Under the pieces are notes generated by a model, which saw only the letters and a list, made by a program, of their open reading frames with translations, was not told the origin of the DNA and ran no database searches. This document shows, piece by piece, positions 8,315 to 62,343 of a stretch of DNA of 64,000 bases. Made by a program: the position numbers and the translations under genes. This stretch comes from Tepidicaulis marinus (GTDB lineage Bacteria > Pseudomonadota > Alphaproteobacteria > Parvibaculales > Parvibaculaceae), in contig NZ_BBIO01000010.1 of the NCBI RefSeq assembly GCF_000739695.1, forward strand, positions 62,001-126,000, read 5' to 3'. Within the stretch, counting starts at the first letter, position 1. Each line of letters starts with the position of its first letter.

Positions 8315-8389
8315 GTTGCCCGCTTTTCCTTCTCTCGCCCGGTTCCGTTTATCCCGCATTTCGGTCATGCTCTGCGGGTGAAACATGCG

Positions 8390-9916
8390 ATGAAACATAA
8401 AGGCCTTCTTGCGGGGCTTCTGGCTTTAGCGCTCATGCTTGCAGGCTGCGTGCAAAACTTTCCCGTGCCGCTTGAAGCGGGGCGCGCGGATATCGCCGCG
8501 TGCCGGGCAGCTTTTGCAGCTTTTGAAGAAAGGGTCGCGCGGGAGGGCGTGCGCGATCATGAGGCTGCGCCCGTGCCTGGATTTTCCTATCTGCGCAAGA
8601 CGCGGCTTCTTTCTTCGTTCCGTAGTGAAGCGATGAGCGATGCGCGGTTCGATGCGTGGGTCCGCGCGCTGCTTGAAGAAGCTGCGGCGGCGCGCGGCAT
8701 CGAGCTGGGCAATCTGCCGGGCGCGGCGCGCGCATCGCTTGGTGAAGCTGCGGGGCAGCGTCTGGATAATTGCGCCGCGCGTCTTGCCGCTCATGATCTT
8801 GCACGAGAGGAGGGCCGCGCGCTTTTGCGCGCGCGGATGATCCCGCCGCGCCATTATGATGATTGGGCGCGGGCGGCGGGCCTTTATCCGCTGAGCGGTA
8901 TTGGCGTTGCGGCCGGTTTTGCGCGCTGGAAAGCGGCCAATCTGCCGAGTTTCGATTTGCCGCCGCATGACGGCACCTCCTATGGCCTGCCCGCTGAAAA
9001 GGAGAAGAGTCTAGACGCGGCAGCGCTTCTCTCGGACGTGAAGCGGGATGCGCTTGGGCTCTGGCATCCGGCCTTGCAAGAGGTGGAAACGCTTGCCCGT
9101 CTTTTTGCGCCGCAAATCATCGTGGCGGAAGAAAGCGCGGCGGATGTGATCGGCACGCCGTTCCTCGATGAGAAGGGCCGCGCGCAAGTGGGAACGGCGC
9201 GCGCCGCGCTTTTTGTGCGTTTCGCGCAAACAAGATGGAACGGCAAGATCCTGCCCCAGCTCGTTTACACATTCTGGTTCAAGGAGCGGCCGAAAGAAGG
9301 CGCATTCGATATTCTGGGCGGCCCGCTCGACGGGGTGATGTGGCGCGTAACGCTGAATGAGAAAGGCCGCCCGCTTGTCTATGACACCGCCCATGCGTGC
9401 GGGTGTTATCATCTCTTCTTTCCCGTTCCGCCGGTGACCCGCCGCCCGGTCCCTGCCGATGGCGATTTGCGCGAGGCGCCGCTTACCCCCCGCGCCGCGC
9501 CGCAATTGCAAGCAGGTGAGCGGCTGGTCCTGCACCTTGCCGCGGGCAGCCATTATCTCCGGCAAATTTCCGTCACAAAAAAGCCCGCTATCAAGGGGTA
9601 TGATATGATGATGGAAATGGAAGCGCCCCGCTATGGACTGCGATCACTGCCTTTACGGAGTGAGCCGGTTCAAGAAGAGACAGTTCAAGAAGAGCTGGGC
9701 AAAGAAGAGGAAACGCGCCGGTCCTTTTATGGGCCAAACGGCATCGTGGCGCGCAGCGCGCGGGCCGAGCGGTTTTTGCTCTGGCCCATGGGGATCCGCA
9801 GCGCCGGGGCCATGCGTCAATGGGGCACCCATGCCACGGCCTTTGTGGGCGAACGGCATTTTGACGATGCGTTTCTTTTTCAGGAAGCATTCGATTGGCA
9901 GGAGACAGCCGAATGA
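8390..9916 (+). CDS. Uncharacterised large lipoprotein
   Basis: Predicted lipoprotein of 508 residues: the signal ends in the lipobox LAGC, so it should be acylated and anchored to a membrane facing the periplasm. I chose the ATG at 8390; a GTG at 8378 adds four residues. Conserved-looking blocks in the C-terminal half are GAFDILGGPLDGVMWR, AHACGCYHLFFP (a C-x-C-Y-H cluster) and GAMRQWGTHATAFVG near the end; similar blocks occur in conserved hypothetical proteins of Gram-negative bacteria as far as I recall. I cannot name a catalytic family; it does not match MltA or other lytic transglycosylases. It is translationally coupled (ATGA overlap) to the TPR gene that follows, so the two probably act together in the envelope. 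Confidence 0.75.
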   Translation: MKHKGLLAGLLALALMLAGCVQNFPVPLEAGRADIAACRAAFAAFEERVAREGVRDHEAAPVPGFSYLRKTRLLSSFRSEAMSDARFDAWVRALLEEAAAARGIELGNLPGAARASLGEAAGQRLDNCAARLAAHDLAREEGRALLRARMIPPRHYDDWARAAGLYPLSGIGVAAGFARWKAANLPSFDLPPHDGTSYGLPAEKEKSLDAAALLSDVKRDALGLWHPALQEVETLARLFAPQIIVAEESAADVIGTPFLDEKGRAQVGTARAALFVRFAQTRWNGKILPQLVYTFWFKERPKEGAFDILGGPLDGVMWRVTLNEKGRPLVYDTAHACGCYHLFFPVPPVTRRPVPADGDLREAPLTPRAAPQLQAGERLVLHLAAGSHYLRQISVTKKPAIKGYDMMMEMEAPRYGLRSLPLRSEPVQEETVQEELGKEEETRRSFYGPNGIVARSARAERFLLWPMGIRSAGAMRQWGTHATAFVGERHFDDAFLFQEAFDWQETAE

Positions 9917-42229: not shown

Positions 42230-42667
42230 ATGAGTGAGCTTCAGGAAAAGCGCCGCTGTCCATGCGGCGGGCAAATGTGTCCGGAAGAAGAGGAAGGCAG
42301 CGCGCTGCTTGCGCCGATCCGCTTTCGCTGCGCCGCGTGCGGAGGCACGGCCTCGATCCGTTCGCGCCGGGTGCTCAACGCCATTCTGGTTCTGGGGCTC
42401 GCCGGTCTTTTCTTTACCGTCTGGGGCCTTTGGGAGCTTTATGCGGTGCGCATTTTCGGCCCCCGCTTCATGCCCGACAGTGAAGCCGTGCAGCGGCTGA
42501 TGAACTGGGCGGACGGTGTCCTCATTCTGGTGGGCATGTTCGTGGCAAGCATCGCCGCCTTGATGGCGGGGCTTGGTCTTTCGGGGCTTATCCAGGATGC
42601 GCGCCATCCTTTGATTGAGGAAGAGCCCGGCGCGCCGGATGTGCCGGGCGGCACGCCGCTCGCCTAA
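42230..42667 (+). CDS. Small zinc-ribbon membrane protein, unknown
   Basis: 145 residues. The N-terminus has a four-cysteine zinc ribbon: CPCGGQMC at about 10-17 and FRCAACGGTA at about 32-41. Two transmembrane helices follow, about 49-70 (LNAILVLGLAGLFFTVWGLW) and 94-116 (DGVLILVGMFVASIAALMAG). The C-terminus is acidic and proline-rich. GGGGATGAG precedes the ATG. No known family is recognised. The ribbon on the cytoplasmic side of a two-helix hairpin suggests a small regulatory or chaperone-like membrane protein (inference). Confidence 0.72.
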   Translation: MSELQEKRRCPCGGQMCPEEEEGSALLAPIRFRCAACGGTASIRSRRVLNAILVLGLAGLFFTVWGLWELYAVRIFGPRFMPDSEAVQRLMNWADGVLILVGMFVASIAALMAGLGLSGLIQDARHPLIEEEPGAPDVPGGTPLA

Positions 42668-42937
42668 GCTGTATTTGTCTTAAATTTCTAAGTTTTATGA
42701 CGGTGTGGCCGCCGGCGCACCGCGCTTGCATGCACGCCGCGCATCGTAAATGCGGTTTCAGAAAGTGATTGTCGGCTTGCTTTTTCCGTGCTTGAGTATC
42801 TCTCCGATATGGCTTTAAGCAGATGCCCCCTTTGACGCCGCCGAATTCTCGAACGCAAAAAAGCACGACATCTTCTGGCCAGTCGAGCCCGGCCGGGGGG
42901 CGAGGCCCGTGCAACTCATTGCGGAGTTTAAGAGACT
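42668..42937 (+). promoter_or_regulatory. Long leader region of the cold-shock gene
   Basis: 270 non-coding bases precede the cold-shock gene. The distal 120 bases hold a GC-rich potential stem around 42886-42905 (GAGCCCGGCCGGGGGGCGAG) and no strong Shine-Dalgarno directly before the ATG (the nearest is GCGGAG, 14 bases away). Cold-shock mRNAs typically have long structured leaders that control translation by temperature; this one fits, but the transcript start is not determined. No clear sigma70 pair is seen. Confidence 0.45.
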
Positions 42938-43147
42938 ATGGCTACTGGGACCGTCAAATGGTTCAATCCGACAAAAGGCTACGGCTTCATCGAACCCGAT
43001 GAGGGCGGCAAAGATGCCTTCGTGCATATCAGCGCAGTCGAGCGTGCAGGCCTGAGCCTGCTCAACGAAGGTCAGCGCGTATCCTATGAACTGACCGAAG
43101 GGCGTGGCGGTAAGATCGCGGCCGACAATCTTAAACTGGTCGACTGA
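42938..43147 (+). CDS. cspA: Cold-shock protein, CspA family
   Basis: 69-residue single OB-fold nucleic-acid binder. RNP1 (KGYGFIEPD, about 13-21) and RNP2 (DAFVHIS, about 28-34) are present, and the N-terminal [14 protein letters not shown] is diagnostic. Acts as an RNA chaperone. The leader upstream is 270 bases long and lacks a strong ribosome site next to the start, consistent with leader-controlled translation. Whether this copy is cold-induced cannot be told. Confidence 0.96.
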
Positions 43148-43212
43148 GGCGTCCCCCCGGACACCTGATTTCAGACGAGTTTCTGATACGAGTTTCGTGG
43201 GGCGGGCAGGCG

Positions 43213-51635: not shown

Positions 51636-52811
51636 TTAGATGCCGAGCTGGCGGGCGGCGAGATCGCGCATGATTTCTTCCGAGCCGCCGCCGATGGCAT
51701 TCACCCTGACTTCCCGGTAAATGCGCTCCACGCGGTTGCCGCGCATATAGCCCGAGCCGCCGAGTATCTGCATCGCCTCGCGCGCGCAGAATTCGAGCGT
51801 CAGCGTTGCCTGCACTTTCAGCATGGCAAGATCGGCGACCGGCGTTTCCCCGTTCTGCACCCGCCAGGCGCAGATTTCCAGATAAGCCTGCGTCGCATTG
51901 ATCTGGCGAACCATCTCCGCGATCTTGTGGCGGATCACCTGATGATCGCCGAGACGCTTGCCGAAGGTCTTGCGTTCCTGCGCCCAGTTCACCGCTTCTT
52001 CAAGGCAGACGCGGGCCGAGCCCATGGCACCGGCAGCCATGCCCAGCCGCTCGCCGTTGAAATTGTTCACGATGCCGATAAAGCCCTGGTTCTCTTCGCC
52101 GATAAGATTGGAGGCGGGCACTTTCACGTCGTCGAAATAAATTGCGGCGGTGTCGGAGGCCCACCAGCCCATTTTTTTCAGCGGCGTGCGGGTGACGCCC
52201 GGCGCATCGGCATCGATCAGCAAGAGCGAGATGCCCCGCATGCCTTCACCGCCCGTGCGCACGGCGGTGGTGAAGTGATGCGCGCGCATGCCGCCGGTGA
52301 TGAACATTTTCGAGCCGTTGACGATATAATGATCGCCGTCCCGCACGGCTTTCGTGGAGATATTGGCAACGTCGGAGCCCGCGCCCGGCTCGGTAATGGC
52401 AAGGGAAATGCGCTTGTCGCCGTTGAGAACCGGCGGGGCGATGCGTTCTTTCATTTCATCGGAGCCGATCGCCATGATCGGCGGCAGGCCGATGCCATGC
52501 ACCATGAGGCTCGCGGTCACGCCGCCCGCGCCGAGCCGCGCAAGCTCCTCGGAGGTCACGATGCCGTGGAAACGGTCGAGCCCCTCCGAGATGCCGCCAT
52601 ATTGCTCGGGATAGCCCATGCGCAGGAGGCCGAATTCGGAGGCTTTCTTGTAAAGCTCTTCGGGAAAGCCGCCCGCCTCGTCCCATTCGTCGGCATAAGG
52701 CATCATTTCCTTTTCCACGAATTTGCGCAGCTCCGCGCGCCAGTGATGATGACTGTCATTCATGAAAGGGCTGGGCAGACGGGTGGTGTCGAAATCGAAT
52801 TGCGCGGCCAT
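51636..52811 (-). CDS. Acyl-CoA dehydrogenase
   Basis: 391-residue FAD acyl-CoA dehydrogenase. [18 protein letters not shown] contains the FAD/substrate motif; the C-terminal [19 protein letters not shown] lacks the MCAD Glu, and the likely base is Glu254 in [10 protein letters not shown], as in long-chain, isovaleryl and related dehydrogenases. AGGGAG precedes the ATG. First gene of the five-gene minus-strand operon, about 145 bases from the FixK/FNR-like box that faces the other way. Substrate could be a branched or cyclic acyl-CoA, given the unusual partner genes. Confidence 0.93.
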
Positions 52812-52956
52812 GAGCGCTCTCCCTGAAATGGATGCCGGGTCTTGTTTGGGCGGCCCGGCTTGTTTGGGTCAGCATTGTCGCCAAACGCGCCTGCCATGCA
52901 AGCAAGGCCTCGCTGACGCCGCGTCTCCTGCGGAAAATACCGGCAGGGGGCCGCGG

Positions 52957-52970
52957 TTGACGCGGATCAA
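52957..52970. promoter_or_regulatory. FixK/FNR-type box
   Basis: TTGACGCGGATCAA: TTGA and TCAA halves separated by six bases, the exact layout of FNR/FixK sites in alphaproteobacteria. Its centre is 72 bases before the start of the small cysteine-rich gene. It is also about 145 bases upstream of the divergent acyl-CoA dehydrogenase start, so it could act on either, but the distance favours the small gene. No Crp/Fnr regulator gene is in the window. Confidence 0.6.
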
Positions 52971-53035
52971 TACGCGCGCGCCGGCAAAAAGGCAGACTGG
53001 CACTCCTTGGGATGCTTTTTGGGAAGGAGGGCGCG

Positions 53036-53272
53036 ATGGTGCCTTTTTGTCATGACCGGCTGCGCCTGGCGGTCAAGGTGCGTGAGCTTGGCCTGGAGGA
53101 AGATGCGCTGGCCCATCTTCAGGTGCTTGCCCGCTGCGCGCAGCTTTCCGACTGCCTCTGCCGGGAGGTTTGCCTAAAACATGTGGAGGAAATGCGTGCC
53201 CTTGGCGGAAAACCGCGCAGCGCCGCAGCAAGCGGCCAGCCTGTGCCGTATTGCAAACGCCTGAATTCCTGA
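53036..53272 (+). CDS. Small six-cysteine protein, unknown
   Basis: 78 residues, no signal peptide. Six cysteines: C5, C34, C40, C42, C46 and C73, with C34-x5-C40-x-C42-x3-C46 clustered in the middle and three histidines (H6, H27, H49). The centre is helical and the C-terminus Ser/Ala/Pro-rich. The start is the ATG at 53036, decided by AAGGAGG at 53024-53030 (five bases away); an ATG at 53012 has none. With a FixK/FNR box upstream, an oxygen- or redox-linked metal-binding role is an attractive guess, but no family is recognised. Confidence 0.75.
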   Translation: MVPFCHDRLRLAVKVRELGLEEDALAHLQVLARCAQLSDCLCREVCLKHVEEMRALGGKPRSAAASGQPVPYCKRLNS

Positions 53273-53302
53273 TGCGTTGAGGAAGCTTCTCCGGGGGAGA
53301 TG

Positions 53303-53540
53303 AGGGCGCCGCGCCGTAATCGAACCCCTACGACAACACTCTCGTGAATCGGCGCCCTCTTTTTCCCCGGATTTCGAAAAGCGTTGATAGCGCGCTTATC
53401 GAAACGTCCCCCAGGGCACGTCAGCTTTCTTGACCGGTCGGGCCCAAACTACGCATGGACCCCATACAGCCGGTAAAAGCTGCGGCGAGCGATCAACCCC
53501 AGGTCCAGCCCCCCGACAGGACTAGAGGGATCACTCCAGC
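53303..53540 (-). ncRNA. Candidate structured non-coding RNA (419-base gene-free gap)
   Basis: The gap 53273-53691 has no ORF but several stable stems, which I drew on the minus strand. GGACC/GGTCC (53506-53502 with 53462-53458) encloses CAGC/GCTG. GGGC/GCCC (53445-53442 with 53417-53414) encloses GTCA/TGAC. TTTCGA/TCGAAA (53403-53398 with 53377-53372) encloses a small inner stem. A 10-bp stem GAGGGCGCCG/CGGCGCCCTC (53358-53303 outer limits) has a 36-base loop with a T-loop-like GGTTCGAT, and is extended by CCGGGG/CCCCGG. A sigma70-like promoter lies just upstream (53547-53576). It does not match the tmRNA, RNase P, 4.5S or 6S features I can recall. On the plus strand the last stem is followed by TTTTT and could instead terminate the small cysteine-rich gene. 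Confidence 0.45.
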
Positions 53541-53546
53541 GGCAGG

Positions 53547-53576
53547 AGGATAGGCGGGATTGAACGTGAAGGTCAA
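53547..53576 (-). promoter_or_regulatory. Sigma70-like promoter reading into the structured region
   Basis: On the minus strand TTGACC (53576-53571), 18-base spacer, TATCCT (53552-53547). Transcription would start near 53540 and enter the stem-loop-rich region. No ORF follows for at least 250 bases on that strand. Confidence 0.5.
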
Positions 53577-53691
53577 CGTGTCAGAATGAGACAAGAGAAA
53601 TTTTTTGATGCCGCGGCGCAGTAAAGGCACAGGCGTATTTTCTCCCCGCTCCCATGAAGCGGGCTTTTGCCTTGCCTCCCATGGTTAACGC

Positions 53692-54306
53692 TCAAACCTC
53701 CGCCGTATAGGGCGGGGCCGGGTCATATTCCATGCCGCGCTGGGTGAGGCGCGCATGGGCGGACCCGTGAAGCTGGCCGGTCAGCCAAAGCGCCATATCG
53801 ATCCCGGCGGAAACGCCGGCAGCGGTGACGAGATTGCCGTCCCGTACATAGCGCGCGTTCTCCAAAACTTCTGCGCCGTAGGGCCGCTTGCGCAGTTCTT
53901 CCACAAAGGCCCAATGGGTGGTGATGCGTTTGCCTTTGGCAAGGCCTGCCGCCGCCAGCACCAAAGAGCCGGTGCACACGCTCGTCACCCAGCCGCAGGC
54001 AGGTGCGGCGGCGCGCAGATAATCCAGCATCGCTTCGTCTTTCTCGAGCGCCCGCGTGCCGTTGCCGCCGGGAATGAGAAGGACATCGAGGATCGGGGCC
54101 GTTTTGAAGGAATAGTCCGCTTCCACCCGCATGCCTTTGGCGCAGGTGACAGGGGCTCCGCCAGGTGAGATGAGAAACACCTCGTCGGGCCGCTCGTTTC
54201 CCTGCAGGGCGAACATTTCATTCGACATGGTGAAAACTTCCCACGGGCCGACAAAGTCGAGCTCTTCGGCGCCGTCGAAAATGAGAATACCGATATTCCG
54301 TGTCAT
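53692..54306 (-). CDS. DJ-1/PfpI family protein
   Basis: 204-residue class I glutamine-amidotransferase-like protein. The nucleophile-elbow cysteine is in TSVCTGSLVLAAAGL (near residue 110) and the conserved N-terminal Glu is in EELDFVGPWEVF. The fold serves many jobs, including isonitrile hydratase (InhA), glyoxalase and chaperone. The isonitrile hydratase group is the closest in layout (TTHWAFVEEL, GIDMALWL), so that is a fair guess. Start ATG overlaps the stop of the GlxA-type regulator upstream, implying that the regulator controls and is co-made with it. Confidence 0.9.
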   Translation of the reverse strand: MTRNIGILIFDGAEELDFVGPWEVFTMSNEMFALQGNERPDEVFLISPGGAPVTCAKGMRVEADYSFKTAPILDVLLIPGGNGTRALEKDEAMLDYLRAAAPACGWVTSVCTGSLVLAAAGLAKGKRITTHWAFVEELRKRPYGAEVLENARYVRDGNLVTAAGVSAGIDMALWLTGQLHGSAHARLTQRGMEYDPAPPYTAEV

Positions 54307-55319
54307 GAATGAACTCCAAGGGCTGAAAGGGCGGGAGAGTGAAAGCGCTCGCGGTAAGCTTGCGGGCTGACATTGAGCATGCGCTGAAAGGTGCGGCGCA
54401 TATGTTCGGTGTTGGAAAAGCCGCTGGCGCGGGCAACCTCTTCCACCGGGTCCTGCGCCTGTTCAAGGCGCTGGCGGGCATGTTCGAGCCGCGCCTGCAT
54501 GACGAAGCGGGCAGGCGTCATGCCCGTCTCGGCTTGAAACGCGCGCGCGAATGTCCGCTCGCTCATATGCGCGCGCTCGGCAAGGGCCGGGATGGTCAGA
54601 TCGGCGGAAGGATGCTCGATGATCCATTGCATGAGATCCGACAGCCGCCCCGGCGCCACGGACTGCGCCTTGAGCTGAGCGGAGAATTGCGACTGGCCGC
54701 CCGGCCTGATCATATAAACGACATGCTGGCGCGCGACGGCCAGCGCCGTCTCATGGCCCATATCCTCGCCGATCATGGCGAGCGCCATATCGATGCCGGT
54801 GGTTACGCCTGCCGAAGTCCAGAACTTTCCGTCCCTTACATAGATCGCATCCTCATCGACCTCGATTTCGGGGTAGAGCGTCTGCATCTTGGATAGCGAT
54901 TCCCAATGGGTGGTGGCGCGCTTGCCGTCCAAAAGCCCAAGCGCGGCGAGAACGAACGCGCCCGTGCAGATGGAGGCAACGCGCCGCGCCTGCTTTGCGG
55001 CCTTGCGGCAGAAGGAAAGGAGGGCGGGATTTTCCATGGCCGCCGCCGTGCCGTCGCCGCCGCAAATAAGAAGCGTGTCGATGCGTTTGAAATCGGCCGC
55101 CGTGAAATCGCTGAAGGAGCGGTCGGGCATCAGCTTCAGCCCGCCATTGGTCTTGAGCGGCGCTTTGTCTTCCGCCGTCAGCACCAGCTCGTAGCGCCTC
55201 GCGCCGGCCGCGCCATTGGCGCCCGCAAACATCTGCATGGGCCCGGTAATATCCAGGACCTGGGCCCTCGGAAAGGCGACCATGACGGTGAGGCGCGGTG
55301 CGGGTTTGGCTTGGCTCAT
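54303..55319 (-). CDS. GlxA family transcriptional regulator (DJ-1-like domain plus AraC HTH)
   Basis: 338-residue regulator. The N-terminal DJ-1/PfpI-like sensor domain (about 1-200) retains a cysteine in ICTGAFVLAALGL. The C-terminal AraC-type double helix-turn-helix (about 220-325) is clear: LAERAHMSERTFARAFQAETG and ARASGFSNTEHMRRTFQRML. Such proteins often regulate an adjacent DJ-1 gene, as seen here with a 4-base overlap. The presence of the same fold in regulator and target suggests that both bind a similar compound. Confidence 0.93.
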   Translation of the reverse strand: MSQAKPAPRLTVMVAFPRAQVLDITGPMQMFAGANGAAGARRYELVLTAEDKAPLKTNGGLKLMPDRSFSDFTAADFKRIDTLLICGGDGTAAAMENPALLSFCRKAAKQARRVASICTGAFVLAALGLLDGKRATTHWESLSKMQTLYPEIEVDEDAIYVRDGKFWTSAGVTTGIDMALAMIGEDMGHETALAVARQHVVYMIRPGGQSQFSAQLKAQSVAPGRLSDLMQWIIEHPSADLTIPALAERAHMSERTFARAFQAETGMTPARFVMQARLEHARQRLEQAQDPVEEVARASGFSNTEHMRRTFQRMLNVSPQAYRERFHSPALSALGVHS

Positions 55320-59081: not shown

Positions 59082-59474
59082 CGTCACACTCCATCTGTGA
59101 AGCCCTGCCCCGACATTTCTCTGCTCTCAATCATGTGAACGAGCGGGGAAGGCCCTTTGTTCTGAGAATGAAGATGGCAGCGGAATCCGGCACGTCTTGG
59201 GTGCTCCAAAGGCGGCGGCGTGATGGTTTTAAGGCGATTTCGAGGCACCCCGGCGCGCGCAGCTTTCAAAAAGGCGCGGATTCCTGCGAGTTGCGGTTCA
59301 GAATTGGCACGTCACTGGTCAATTTTTTTGATTCCCAGGGCGCACTCGGGCCGTTATGGTGCCGCCAACCATTGGGAACGTAACGGAATCCGCGCTTTAT
59401 GGTGTCCCTGCCTCCTCCAAGGTCAGGCACCGCCGGGCTCTGTCGTGCAAATTGAACCATAAGGGAGATCTATC
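59082..59474 (+). other. Long gap upstream of the second thiolase
   Basis: 393 bases without a gene. The only promoter-like pair towards the thiolase is TTGGCA (59304-59309), 17-base spacer, TTTGAT (59327-59332), which leaves a leader of about 135 bases. A T-run (59323-59329) lies between them. No stable terminator or ORF is seen. The leader is unusually long for a metabolic gene, but no known riboswitch is recognised. Confidence 0.4.
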
Positions 59475-60680
59475 ATGGCAAGGGAAGCAGTCATCGTTTC
59501 GACCGCCCGCACGGGTCTGGCGAAATCCGGCCGCGGCGGTTTCAACATGACCCACGGCGCGGCGCTCGCCGGGCACACCATCAAACACGCGATCGAGCGC
59601 GCTGGCGTCGAGCCGGGTGAAGTCGAAGACGTGATCATGGGCTGCGGCGCGCCGGAAGGCGCCACGGGCCACAATGTCGGCCGCACCGCCGCCATCTGGG
59701 CCGGCTGCCCGGTCACGACCTCCGGCACCACGGTCAACCGTTTCTGCTCGTCGGGCCTGCAGACCATCGCGATGGCTGCCAACGCGATCGTCAACAACAA
59801 CGTGCCGGTCGCCATCGGCGGCGGCGTTGAAACCATTTCGCTGACCCAGATGCAGGGCCTCAACCTCAACAACTTCACCGAAGAGAAGTTGATGCAGGAA
59901 AAGCCGGAACTGTGGATGGCGATGATCGAAACGGCTGAAATCGTTGCCGAGCGTTACGGCATCTCCCGTGAAGCGCAAGACGAGTTCTCGCTGCGCTCGC
60001 AGCAGCTGATTGCCAAGGCCCAGGCCGAAGGCAAGTTCGACAATGAAATCGTTCCCATGAAGACCAAGATGAAAAAGGTCAACAAGGAAACGGGCGAAGA
60101 AACCATCGTCGATTACGTGGTGGACAAGGACGAATGCAACCGTCCCGACACGACGCTGGAAGGTCTTGCCTCGCTGAAGCCGGTCTTCAAGAACGGCCAG
60201 AAGGTCAAGGAAGGCCGGTACATCACCGCCGGTAACGCTTCGCAGCTTTCCGACGGCGCCGCTTCTTGCCTCCTGATGGAAGCCAAGGAAGCCGAACGCC
60301 GCGGTCTCGAGCCGCTCGGCGCGTTCCGCGGCTTTGCCGTTGCCGGCTGCGAGCCCGATGAAATGGGTATCGGCCCGGTTTACGCGATCCCGCGTCTTTT
60401 GGAGCGCACGGGCCTCAAAGTCGACGATATCGACCTTTGGGAACTGAACGAAGCGTTCGCCAGCCAGTGTCTCTACTGCCGCGATACGCTGGGCATCGAT
60501 CCCGACAAATACAACGTCAATGGCGGCTCCATCGCCATCGGCCACCCCTTCGGCATGACGGGTGCGCGCCTCACCGGCCACATCCTGCTCGAAGGCAAGC
60601 GCCGCGGCGCCAAATACGGCGTTGTGACCATGTGCATCGGCGGCGGCATGGGCGCAGCCGGCCTCTTCGAAATCTTCTAA
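59475..60680 (+). CDS. Acetyl-CoA C-acyltransferase (thiolase)
   Basis: 401-residue thiolase, related to but distinct from the one at 35859. Catalytic Cys91 in [10 protein letters not shown], His in [13 protein letters not shown], and the second Cys in TMCIGGGMG. The DKYNVNGGS-type loop and the EIMVDYVV-like insert near residue 205 suggest a long-chain thiolase. Isolated gene with a strong ribosome site (AAGGGAGA), so it is regulated separately from the beta-oxidation operon. It ends in a clear terminator at 60703. Confidence 0.95.
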
Positions 60681-60737: not shown

Positions 60738-60747
60738 GCGTGAGAAG

Positions 60748-61590
60748 TTATGCAGGTAACGTCTTCGCAAACGCGGTGAAGGCTTTGGCAAAAGCTTTCG
60801 GCCGTTCGAGGAAAGGTGCATGGCCGCCGGGAAAAGTGGTGAGCCCGGCTTTCTTCATTTGTTTGATTACGGGAAGGCTGGCTTTCAGCGCCACAATCCG
60901 GTCGCCTTTCGCCCAGGCAAACCAGACAGGAATGTCGAGAGAAAGGGCGAGGGAGCGGATGTCGGCCTCGGGCGCGGCAAAGCTCTCCCATGCCGCACGT
61001 AAGACCGGGGCGGTTTCATAACCGGCGGCAACGATGCGCCGCCTTTGCGCCGCGGCCGGGCGTTTCGGCAGCACCAGAAAGCGGTAATAGACGCGGAAGG
61101 CGGGCGCGAACCAGCGCGCCCCGCGCTCGCCGGCGGAAAAGAACTTCACCATGAGGCCGATCGCTTTGCGGGCCTTTGCGTCGATCTCCATGAGCCCGCC
61201 GGGACTGCAGGCAACGAGCCCGCGTACTTTGCCGGGTACGCTCGCGGCATAGATGAGCGCGGCGGCCCCGCCGACGGAGCAGCCAAGAAGGATGGGGCGT
61301 TCGATCCTAAGTTTCTCGATCACGCCGGAGAGAAGCTCGGCATAGCGCGCGGCACTGGCGGGCTCGTTGTCCGGGCCGGAGCGGCCCTGGCCCGGCCAGT
61401 CGAGGCGGATGATTTCAAAATCGCGGCCCGCAAGTTTTGCAAAGCGCTCGAAATCCCGCGCCCCGTGGCCGATGGCATGGAGGCAAATGACCGCAGGGCC
61501 TTGCCCGGAGCGGGCAACGGCGAGCCGCACTCCGTCAACTTCCACAATTTCCGCATCTTCCGGCGTTCCCGTCCAGGCTCGTGCGTTCAT
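60748..61590 (-). CDS. Alpha/beta hydrolase
   Basis: 280-residue alpha/beta hydrolase of the PcaD/BioH-like shape. HAIGHGARDFERFAKL is the oxyanion region, LLGCSVGGAAALIYA the nucleophile elbow (Ser near 105), and FPGGHAPFLERPKA the catalytic His near 265. Likely hydrolyses esters, lactones or C-C bonds of small acids; no substrate can be named. Start is the ATG at 61590 with GGGAGG upstream; codons further up lie over the operator. It is divergent from the TetR gene and probably its main target. Confidence 0.9.
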   Translation of the reverse strand: MNARAWTGTPEDAEIVEVDGVRLAVARSGQGPAVICLHAIGHGARDFERFAKLAGRDFEIIRLDWPGQGRSGPDNEPASAARYAELLSGVIEKLRIERPILLGCSVGGAAALIYAASVPGKVRGLVACSPGGLMEIDAKARKAIGLMVKFFSAGERGARWFAPAFRVYYRFLVLPKRPAAAQRRRIVAAGYETAPVLRAAWESFAAPEADIRSLALSLDIPVWFAWAKGDRIVALKASLPVIKQMKKAGLTTFPGGHAPFLERPKAFAKAFTAFAKTLPA

Positions 61591-61612
61591 TTTCTGCCTC
61601 CCGTTCAAGTTT

Positions 61613-61630
61613 AGTGATAGATATATCACT
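61613..61630. promoter_or_regulatory. TetR-type operator palindrome
   Basis: AGTGATA-GATA-TATCACT: perfect 7-base arms with a 4-base centre. It lies 23 bases before the hydrolase start on one side and 61 bases before the TetR start on the other, the usual place for a TetR operator controlling a divergent pair. Confidence 0.72.
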
Positions 61631-61690
61631 TTTAGGGTATTTCAAGAGCGGTAATTGGCGCGGCGGGCAAAGGCGGGTATCACGGGACCT

Positions 61691-62293
61691 ATGGCAGAAG
61701 CAGAATCGGCACGAGGCGCACAGGCGGCACAAGGCGCAAAACGCGCGCGCGGCAAGGGGGAAACGCCCCGCCGCCTGACGCGCGCGGCGGCTGAAGAGTT
61801 CAATGCTCATGGCTTTGCGGGCACGGACACGAATAAGATTGCCCGGCGCGCGGGTTTTGCCCCGCAAACTTTCTATCGCTGGTTCAAGGACAAGACCGAC
61901 ATCTTCCTTGCCGTTTACCGGGACTGGGAAGAAGCGGAGCGGGAGATGTTAGCCGGCCTTGCCGCGCAAAAAGCGCCGTCTTTAAAGCTGGCTGAAGCGG
62001 TGATTTCCCATCACCGGAACCATCTTTTATTCCGCCGCTCGCTGAGGCAGCTTGCCGTGGAAGACGAGGCCGTGCGCGCCGCGCGGGCCGAAAGCCGGCT
62101 GCGTCAGCTTTCGAGGGTAGCCGGGCCCGGCGCGTCCAAAAGCCGCCTTGCGGAGCTTGCCGTTTTGCTGCTTCAAATTGAACGGCTCTGCGACGGGGTG
62201 GCGGAAGGCGAGTTCGCCGATCTCGGCCTCGGCGAAAAAGAAGCGAAAAAGACACTGGGCGCGCTTTTAGAAGAATTGCGCCGGCATCCCTAG
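61691..62293 (+). CDS. TetR/AcrR family transcriptional regulator
   Basis: 200-residue TetR regulator. HTH at about 26-70: AAAEEFNAHGFAGTDTNKIA then RRAGFAPQTFYRWFKDKTDIF. The C-terminal domain is all helix and short. The ATG at 61691 is chosen; a TTG at 61655 would extend into a region of simple basic residues and overlap the operator area. Most likely represses the divergent alpha/beta hydrolase and itself through the palindrome at 61613-61630. The downstream dehydratase and globin genes follow on the same strand and may be co-regulated. Confidence 0.88.
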   Translation: MAEAESARGAQAAQGAKRARGKGETPRRLTRAAAEEFNAHGFAGTDTNKIARRAGFAPQTFYRWFKDKTDIFLAVYRDWEEAEREMLAGLAAQKAPSLKLAEAVISHHRNHLLFRRSLRQLAVEDEAVRAARAESRLRQLSRVAGPGASKSRLAELAVLLLQIERLCDGVAEGEFADLGLGEKEAKKTLGALLEELRRHP

Positions 62294-62343
62294 CCGGCCT
62301 CCTGAAAAGCCCCCCGGAAAGAGTGCGGAAAGGCAGGGACGAG

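Follow-up and report, generated by a model that had tools for sequence, protein, structure and literature searches.

The locus lies in a 64,000-nt stretch of Tepidicaulis marinus DNA (the window, in whose numbering positions are given unless a contig is named), which is part of a genome of 3.48 Mb in 46 contigs with a completeness of 99.98%. Two converging genes leave between their stop codons a gap of exactly 419 nt (53273-53691; Table 1). The gene on the plus strand encodes a small protein for which no Pfam family match was found; that on the minus strand belongs to the DJ-1/PfpI family, and its start is overlapped by a gene for a GlxA-like regulator. The initial annotation had described these neighbours as a redox-linked small protein and a DJ-1/GlxA pair, of which Pfam confirmed the pair and gave the "redox-linked" label no backing. 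The small protein is cysteine-rich, and its homologues found in a sister genus (g3), which are also convergent with a DJ-1 gene, keep spaced cysteines (C-x-x-R-D-R ... C ... SDC-x-x-R-x-x-C). All ORFs inside the gap are at most 45 aa long, in agreement with the original description of 419 bases without a plausible ORF, and the longest ATG ORF starting within the conserved block described below has 32 aa. A short ORF in the predicted minus-strand RNA (53464 region) was considered as a coding sequence and rejected, since its start codon is lost in the congener.

Table 1. Genes and sequence features at the locus (positions in the window; features of the RNA and its promoter are predicted).
Feature	Position	Strand	Remarks
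Small protein gene, converging	53012-53272	+	86 aa; 78 aa if from ATG 53036, after AAGGAGGG
Candidate intrinsic terminator for the 86-aa gene	53302-53365	+	putative; 10-bp stem closing a 38-nt loop and followed by TTTTT
Conserved non-coding block (promoter region and predicted RNA gene)	53288-53608	-	substitutions counted against UBA4490
Predicted RNA structured as five hairpins, about 252-254 nt	53541-53288	-	predicted 5' end about 53540, predicted 3' end about 53290
Hairpin H1	53485-53540	-	substitution 53504: U-A to U-G on minus, A-C on plus
Hairpin H2	53422-53482	-	substitutions 53439, 53463 unpaired; 53464, 53449 in weak closing pairs
Small hairpin H3	53404-53421	-	0 changes between species
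Hairpin H4	53373-53403	-	substitutions 53398, 53391, both unpaired
Terminal hairpin H5, 22-nt inverted repeat around three-way junction	53290-53371	-	inner loops GAGA, GGGUUCGA
Sigma70-like promoter TTGACC-N18-TATCCT	53547-53576	-	sole match in 52800-54400
Stretch upstream of -35	53577-53608	-	32 nt, substituted at 53596 and 53597; no longer conserved from 53609
DJ-1/PfpI gene, converging	53692-54306	-	PF01965, 2.1e-31
GlxA-like regulator, DJ-1/PfpI domain and AraC-type HTH	54303-55319	-	PF01965, PF12833

The region was compared by pairwise alignment with its counterpart in Rhodobiaceae bacterium UBA4490, the only congeneric genome besides this one. The block differs there by 11 substitutions in 321 nt, with no indels (96.6% identity), as against 308 of 1920 third codon positions in seven neighbouring genes (16%, that is, 84% identical; P about 5e-13), and it must therefore be under strong constraint. 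It is also better conserved than the remaining non-coding DNA of the window (P 6e-5) and than the adjoining flank 53609-53691, where 18 of 83 positions differ (Fisher P 4e-7). Its substitutions lack codon periodicity, unlike those of the 86-aa gene, where 25 of 37 fall in third positions. One edge of the block coincides with the base of the terminal hairpin H5 (53290), and the other (53608) lies about 32 bp upstream of the -35 hexamer of a promoter-like sequence. The comparison thus shows a non-coding block with sharp edges whose substitution pattern indicates purifying selection, of the kind expected for a stand-alone sRNA; conservation in related genomes, which had been proposed at the outset as a check, holds in the sole congener compared. 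These figures are to be read against a mean identity of 92% between the two genomes across the window: 8% of all 320-nt segments in the genome pair, mostly coding, are equally conserved, and segments with still higher conservation occur in at least two other non-coding gaps that are 321 nt or longer (42655-43212, which contains a cold-shock gene, and 59088-59474).

Several other parts of the window stood out as well. The leader of the cold-shock protein gene (leader 42655-42937; gene 42938-43147, PF00313, 7.7e-23) is non-coding and 98-99.7% identical between the congeners; an Rfam search of 42600-43000 gave no match, and the leader is probably a structured cold-sensing 5' UTR. The 387-nt non-coding stretch 59088-59474, upstream of a thiolase gene (59475-60680, plus strand), is 97-98% identical; a conserved regulatory element may lie there, or a small gene that was overlooked. 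About 1.6 kb (60739-62343) with genes for an alpha/beta hydrolase (60748-61629, minus strand) and a TetR-type regulator (61655-62293, plus strand) is missing from the congener's collinear region, a gain or loss of a small module, and the ORF region 8378-9916, with about 75% identity to the congener against the 92% window average, appears to be a fast-evolving or replaced gene.

Read on the minus strand, the part of the block beyond the promoter-like sequence is predicted to form five hairpins. For this 254-nt RNA, the MFE and centroid structures have nearly the same energy (-121.1 and -121.0 kcal/mol), z is -3.54 and no shuffled sequence was equally stable; for the entire 419-nt interval on the same strand, z against shuffles is -3.1. 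The orthologue in UBA4490 takes the same fold apart from two weak pairs. Seven substitutions separate the two species within the 254 nt, four of them at unpaired positions, two in weak pairs outside the two-species consensus (the closing pairs of H2 at 53464 and 53449) and one turning a U-A pair into U-G. The 82 nt of H5 are identical in both species. Its 10-bp stem (GAGGGCGCCG, 53302-53311, with CGGCGCCCTC, 53350-53359), the terminal stem noted in the initial annotation, is real and forms the core of a 22-nt inverted repeat (53290-53311/53350-53371) that is 86% complementary; on the minus strand, the loop of this stem contains GGGGTTCGAT. The sequence is carried by just two genomes, too few for true covariation; the non-random fold is common to both, as would be expected of a stand-alone sRNA.

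Searches for known RNA families placed the element in none of them. With cmscan and Rfam 15, nothing was found in the whole window at gathering scores, ARAGORN detected no tRNA or tmRNA in it, and permissive filters returned for the region, in both species, just scores far below cut-off, such as those of microRNA families. The genome encodes alpha_tmRNA (RF01849) at C42:165064-165427 with 310 bits and, each above cut-off, 6S RNA (RF00013) at C26:21916-22072, RNase P RNA class A (RF00010) at C23:883-1265 and the bacterial small SRP RNA (RF00169) at C39:85533-85628, and the region itself matches none of the four. As these housekeeping RNAs lie on other contigs and no Rfam match was obtained, the element is not a disguised housekeeping RNA; the earlier exclusion of RNase P, SRP, 6S and tmRNA was thus borne out, and the Infernal search proposed with it has been run and matched no known family. 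In outline, the size of the element and a GGTTCGAT loop resemble those of tmRNA or RNase P, and on these grounds a diverged member of one of the four families, or of another Rfam family, might be suspected; but the low scores obtained with permissive filters are meaningless, and this reading, already largely refuted by the results above, has a negligible probability. The GGTTCGAT motif was also tried as a tRNA T-loop and rejected by inspection, the flanking bases forming no T-stem. A literature search found no study of sRNAs in this bacterial group.

Fold stability picks no strand, because z on the plus strand (-2.6 for the entire interval and -3.41 for the same 254 nt) nearly equals that on the minus strand. 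The minus strand was assigned from the promoter, the ensemble, which is sharper there, and the one substitution that yields a G-U pair; this assignment is no more than moderately secure. A promoter scan over 1.6 kb (52800-54400) found one sigma70-like site, on the minus strand, and none on the plus strand; since 0.4 sites are expected by chance, this site alone is weak evidence. Both of its hexamers are unchanged in the congener, where two changes fall in the spacer (53562-53563), and the conserved stretch upstream of the -35 hexamer is a possible UP element or regulator site. The initial annotation had recognized this sequence on the minus strand, where it is present at 53576-53547, but had placed it just outside the region; it lies within the 419-nt interval and outside the proposed RNA. 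About 67 nt of the block (53542-53608) hold the promoter hexamers, and the about 252 nt that remain fit the earlier estimate of an RNA of about 240 nt, its minus strand now being moderately supported.

The same DNA could act on the plus strand: it would be the 3' UTR that belongs to the 86-aa gene, where H5 would serve as a terminator or exonuclease block, or it would give a 3'-UTR-derived sRNA ending at 53663. In this orientation TTTTT follows the GC-rich 10-bp stem of H5, G-U pairs lengthen its outer helix, a short terminator-like hairpin is present at 53645-53663, and the 254-nt fold has the z value given above. Against these features, the 38-nt loop of H5 is identical in both species, an identity that a terminator would not need, the hairpin at 53645-53663 lacks conservation, with changes to its stem in UBA4490, the substitution at 53504 breaks a plus-strand pair, the fold of the 321-nt block is poorly defined on this strand (centroid -82 against MFE -117, z -1.75), and the promoter scan was negative. 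A plus-strand element is therefore unlikely, if with a real chance. On the plus strand, H5 with its T5 tract may also end the mRNA of the 86-aa gene, and this putative terminator was missed by the terminator scan because its loop is longer than 8 nt. On the minus strand, H5 is a strong hairpin, but the sequence after it lacks a U-tract.

A minus-strand RNA with no promoter of its own could also come from the GlxA/DJ-1 operon, whose mRNA would carry it as a 3' UTR trailer or be processed to release it. The element is on the same strand as the operon and follows the DJ-1 stop codon at a distance of 150 nt, and the scan shows no clear minus-strand terminator directly after DJ-1. However, the sequence between this stop codon and the block is the divergent flank 53609-53691, and the conserved block starts upstream of the promoter-like sequence, so that we consider an origin from the operon quite improbable.

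Outside the two congeners the sequence was not encountered. A DNA search of 60 relatives found the region in UBA4490 only, and of 84,980 species genomes a single record, that of the same organism, contains a 20-mer taken from the terminal hairpin. A search of about 145 relatives with covariance models of the whole RNA and of its 3' half, built from the two sequences, brought up no convincing homologue, the best other matches having E 0.13-0.14, and weak DNA matches in genomes of the family were on inspection no better than scattered short matches. At a threshold of E 0.001 the element is single copy in the genome and therefore not a dispersed repeat. A mobile or phage origin was rejected on the basis of the single copy and the lack of any match in phage or plasmid records; five viral contigs have just a 17-mer in common with the element, without extended similarity. 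In six genomes of the sister genus, the same converging pair of an 86-aa homologue and DJ-1 lies 2-35 bp apart, which leaves no room for the block, and in a seventh the small gene is interrupted; the DJ-1 proteins of this genus are about 40% identical to that of Tepidicaulis marinus. The closer DJ-1 relatives in other genera (62-72% identical) are followed, directly or soon downstream, by an ORF that matches a GlxA-like gene in size (roughly 330-366 codons), and no sequence resembling the block was found at these loci. Because the gene pair nearly abuts in the sister genus, the relatives yielded no homologue, and the element is single copy and matches no phage or plasmid, the RNA appears to have been gained in this lineage.

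The block might instead be conserved as DNA rather than as RNA, for binding a regulator or nucleoid protein or as the remnant of an inserted element: its inverted repeats could serve as protein sites, and compared with sister genera it seems to be inserted. Yet conservation extends over all 321 nt, far beyond a few binding sites, the single copy is accompanied by no phage or plasmid match, and the fold is far from the shuffled expectation, all of which makes such an explanation highly improbable.

The reading that we favour, with a probability of roughly 0.6, is that the minus strand of the locus encodes a structured sRNA of about 250 nt that is transcribed independently, is restricted to the genus and probably acts in trans. 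Its own sigma70-type promoter would drive an RNA that would fold as a chain of five hairpins, the last being the inverted-repeat hairpin with its three-way junction. From sequence we infer both the transcription of this RNA, with its strand, exact ends and 3' end formation, and its mode of action and targets: it would code for no peptide and act in trans, by base-pairing via its loops or by protein binding, and the fold suggests as candidate contact sites the loops of H2 and H4, the inner loops of H5 and an A5 internal loop. The first description of the region as a candidate new small RNA is in this way supported by its conservation, its fold and the lack of an Rfam match. We regard as distinctly unlikely the stronger claim that this large, highly structured RNA, with its five hairpins and three-way-junction terminal domain, stands for a new class of bacterial RNAs that has its own function, is so far limited to a single alphaproteobacterial genus and arose between two genes that leave no room for it in a sister genus. 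There is as yet no sign of anything unusual in the mechanism of the RNA, which is an ordinary kind of element. If transcribed, it would present a clear case of an RNA gene acquired recently, in which a gene pair that nearly abuts in the sister genus is separated here by a structured block of 320 nt under selection, and it could aid the study of how lineage-specific regulatory RNAs arise.

Many bacteria have unclassified sRNAs that are limited to one genus. The candidate exceeds typical base-pairing sRNAs in size and in degree of structure. The housekeeping RNAs alpha_tmRNA, 6S, RNase P type A and small SRP are comparable in size or in richness of stem-loops, but give no score here. The logic of pipelines for GC-rich intergenic ncRNAs (PMC6429828, PMC8632094) is the same, in that a long, conserved, structured intergenic region without an ORF is sought, whereas their candidates usually comprise many sequences with covariation and ours comprises two nearly identical ones. 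Compared with the trans-encoded sRNAs of Alphaproteobacteria, such as the Sinorhizobium meliloti set (PMC2873474), the candidate is known from sequence alone and is without a U-rich terminator on the predicted strand, but it is like them in its stand-alone intergenic position, its predicted own promoter, its stem-loop fold and its narrow phylogenetic range.
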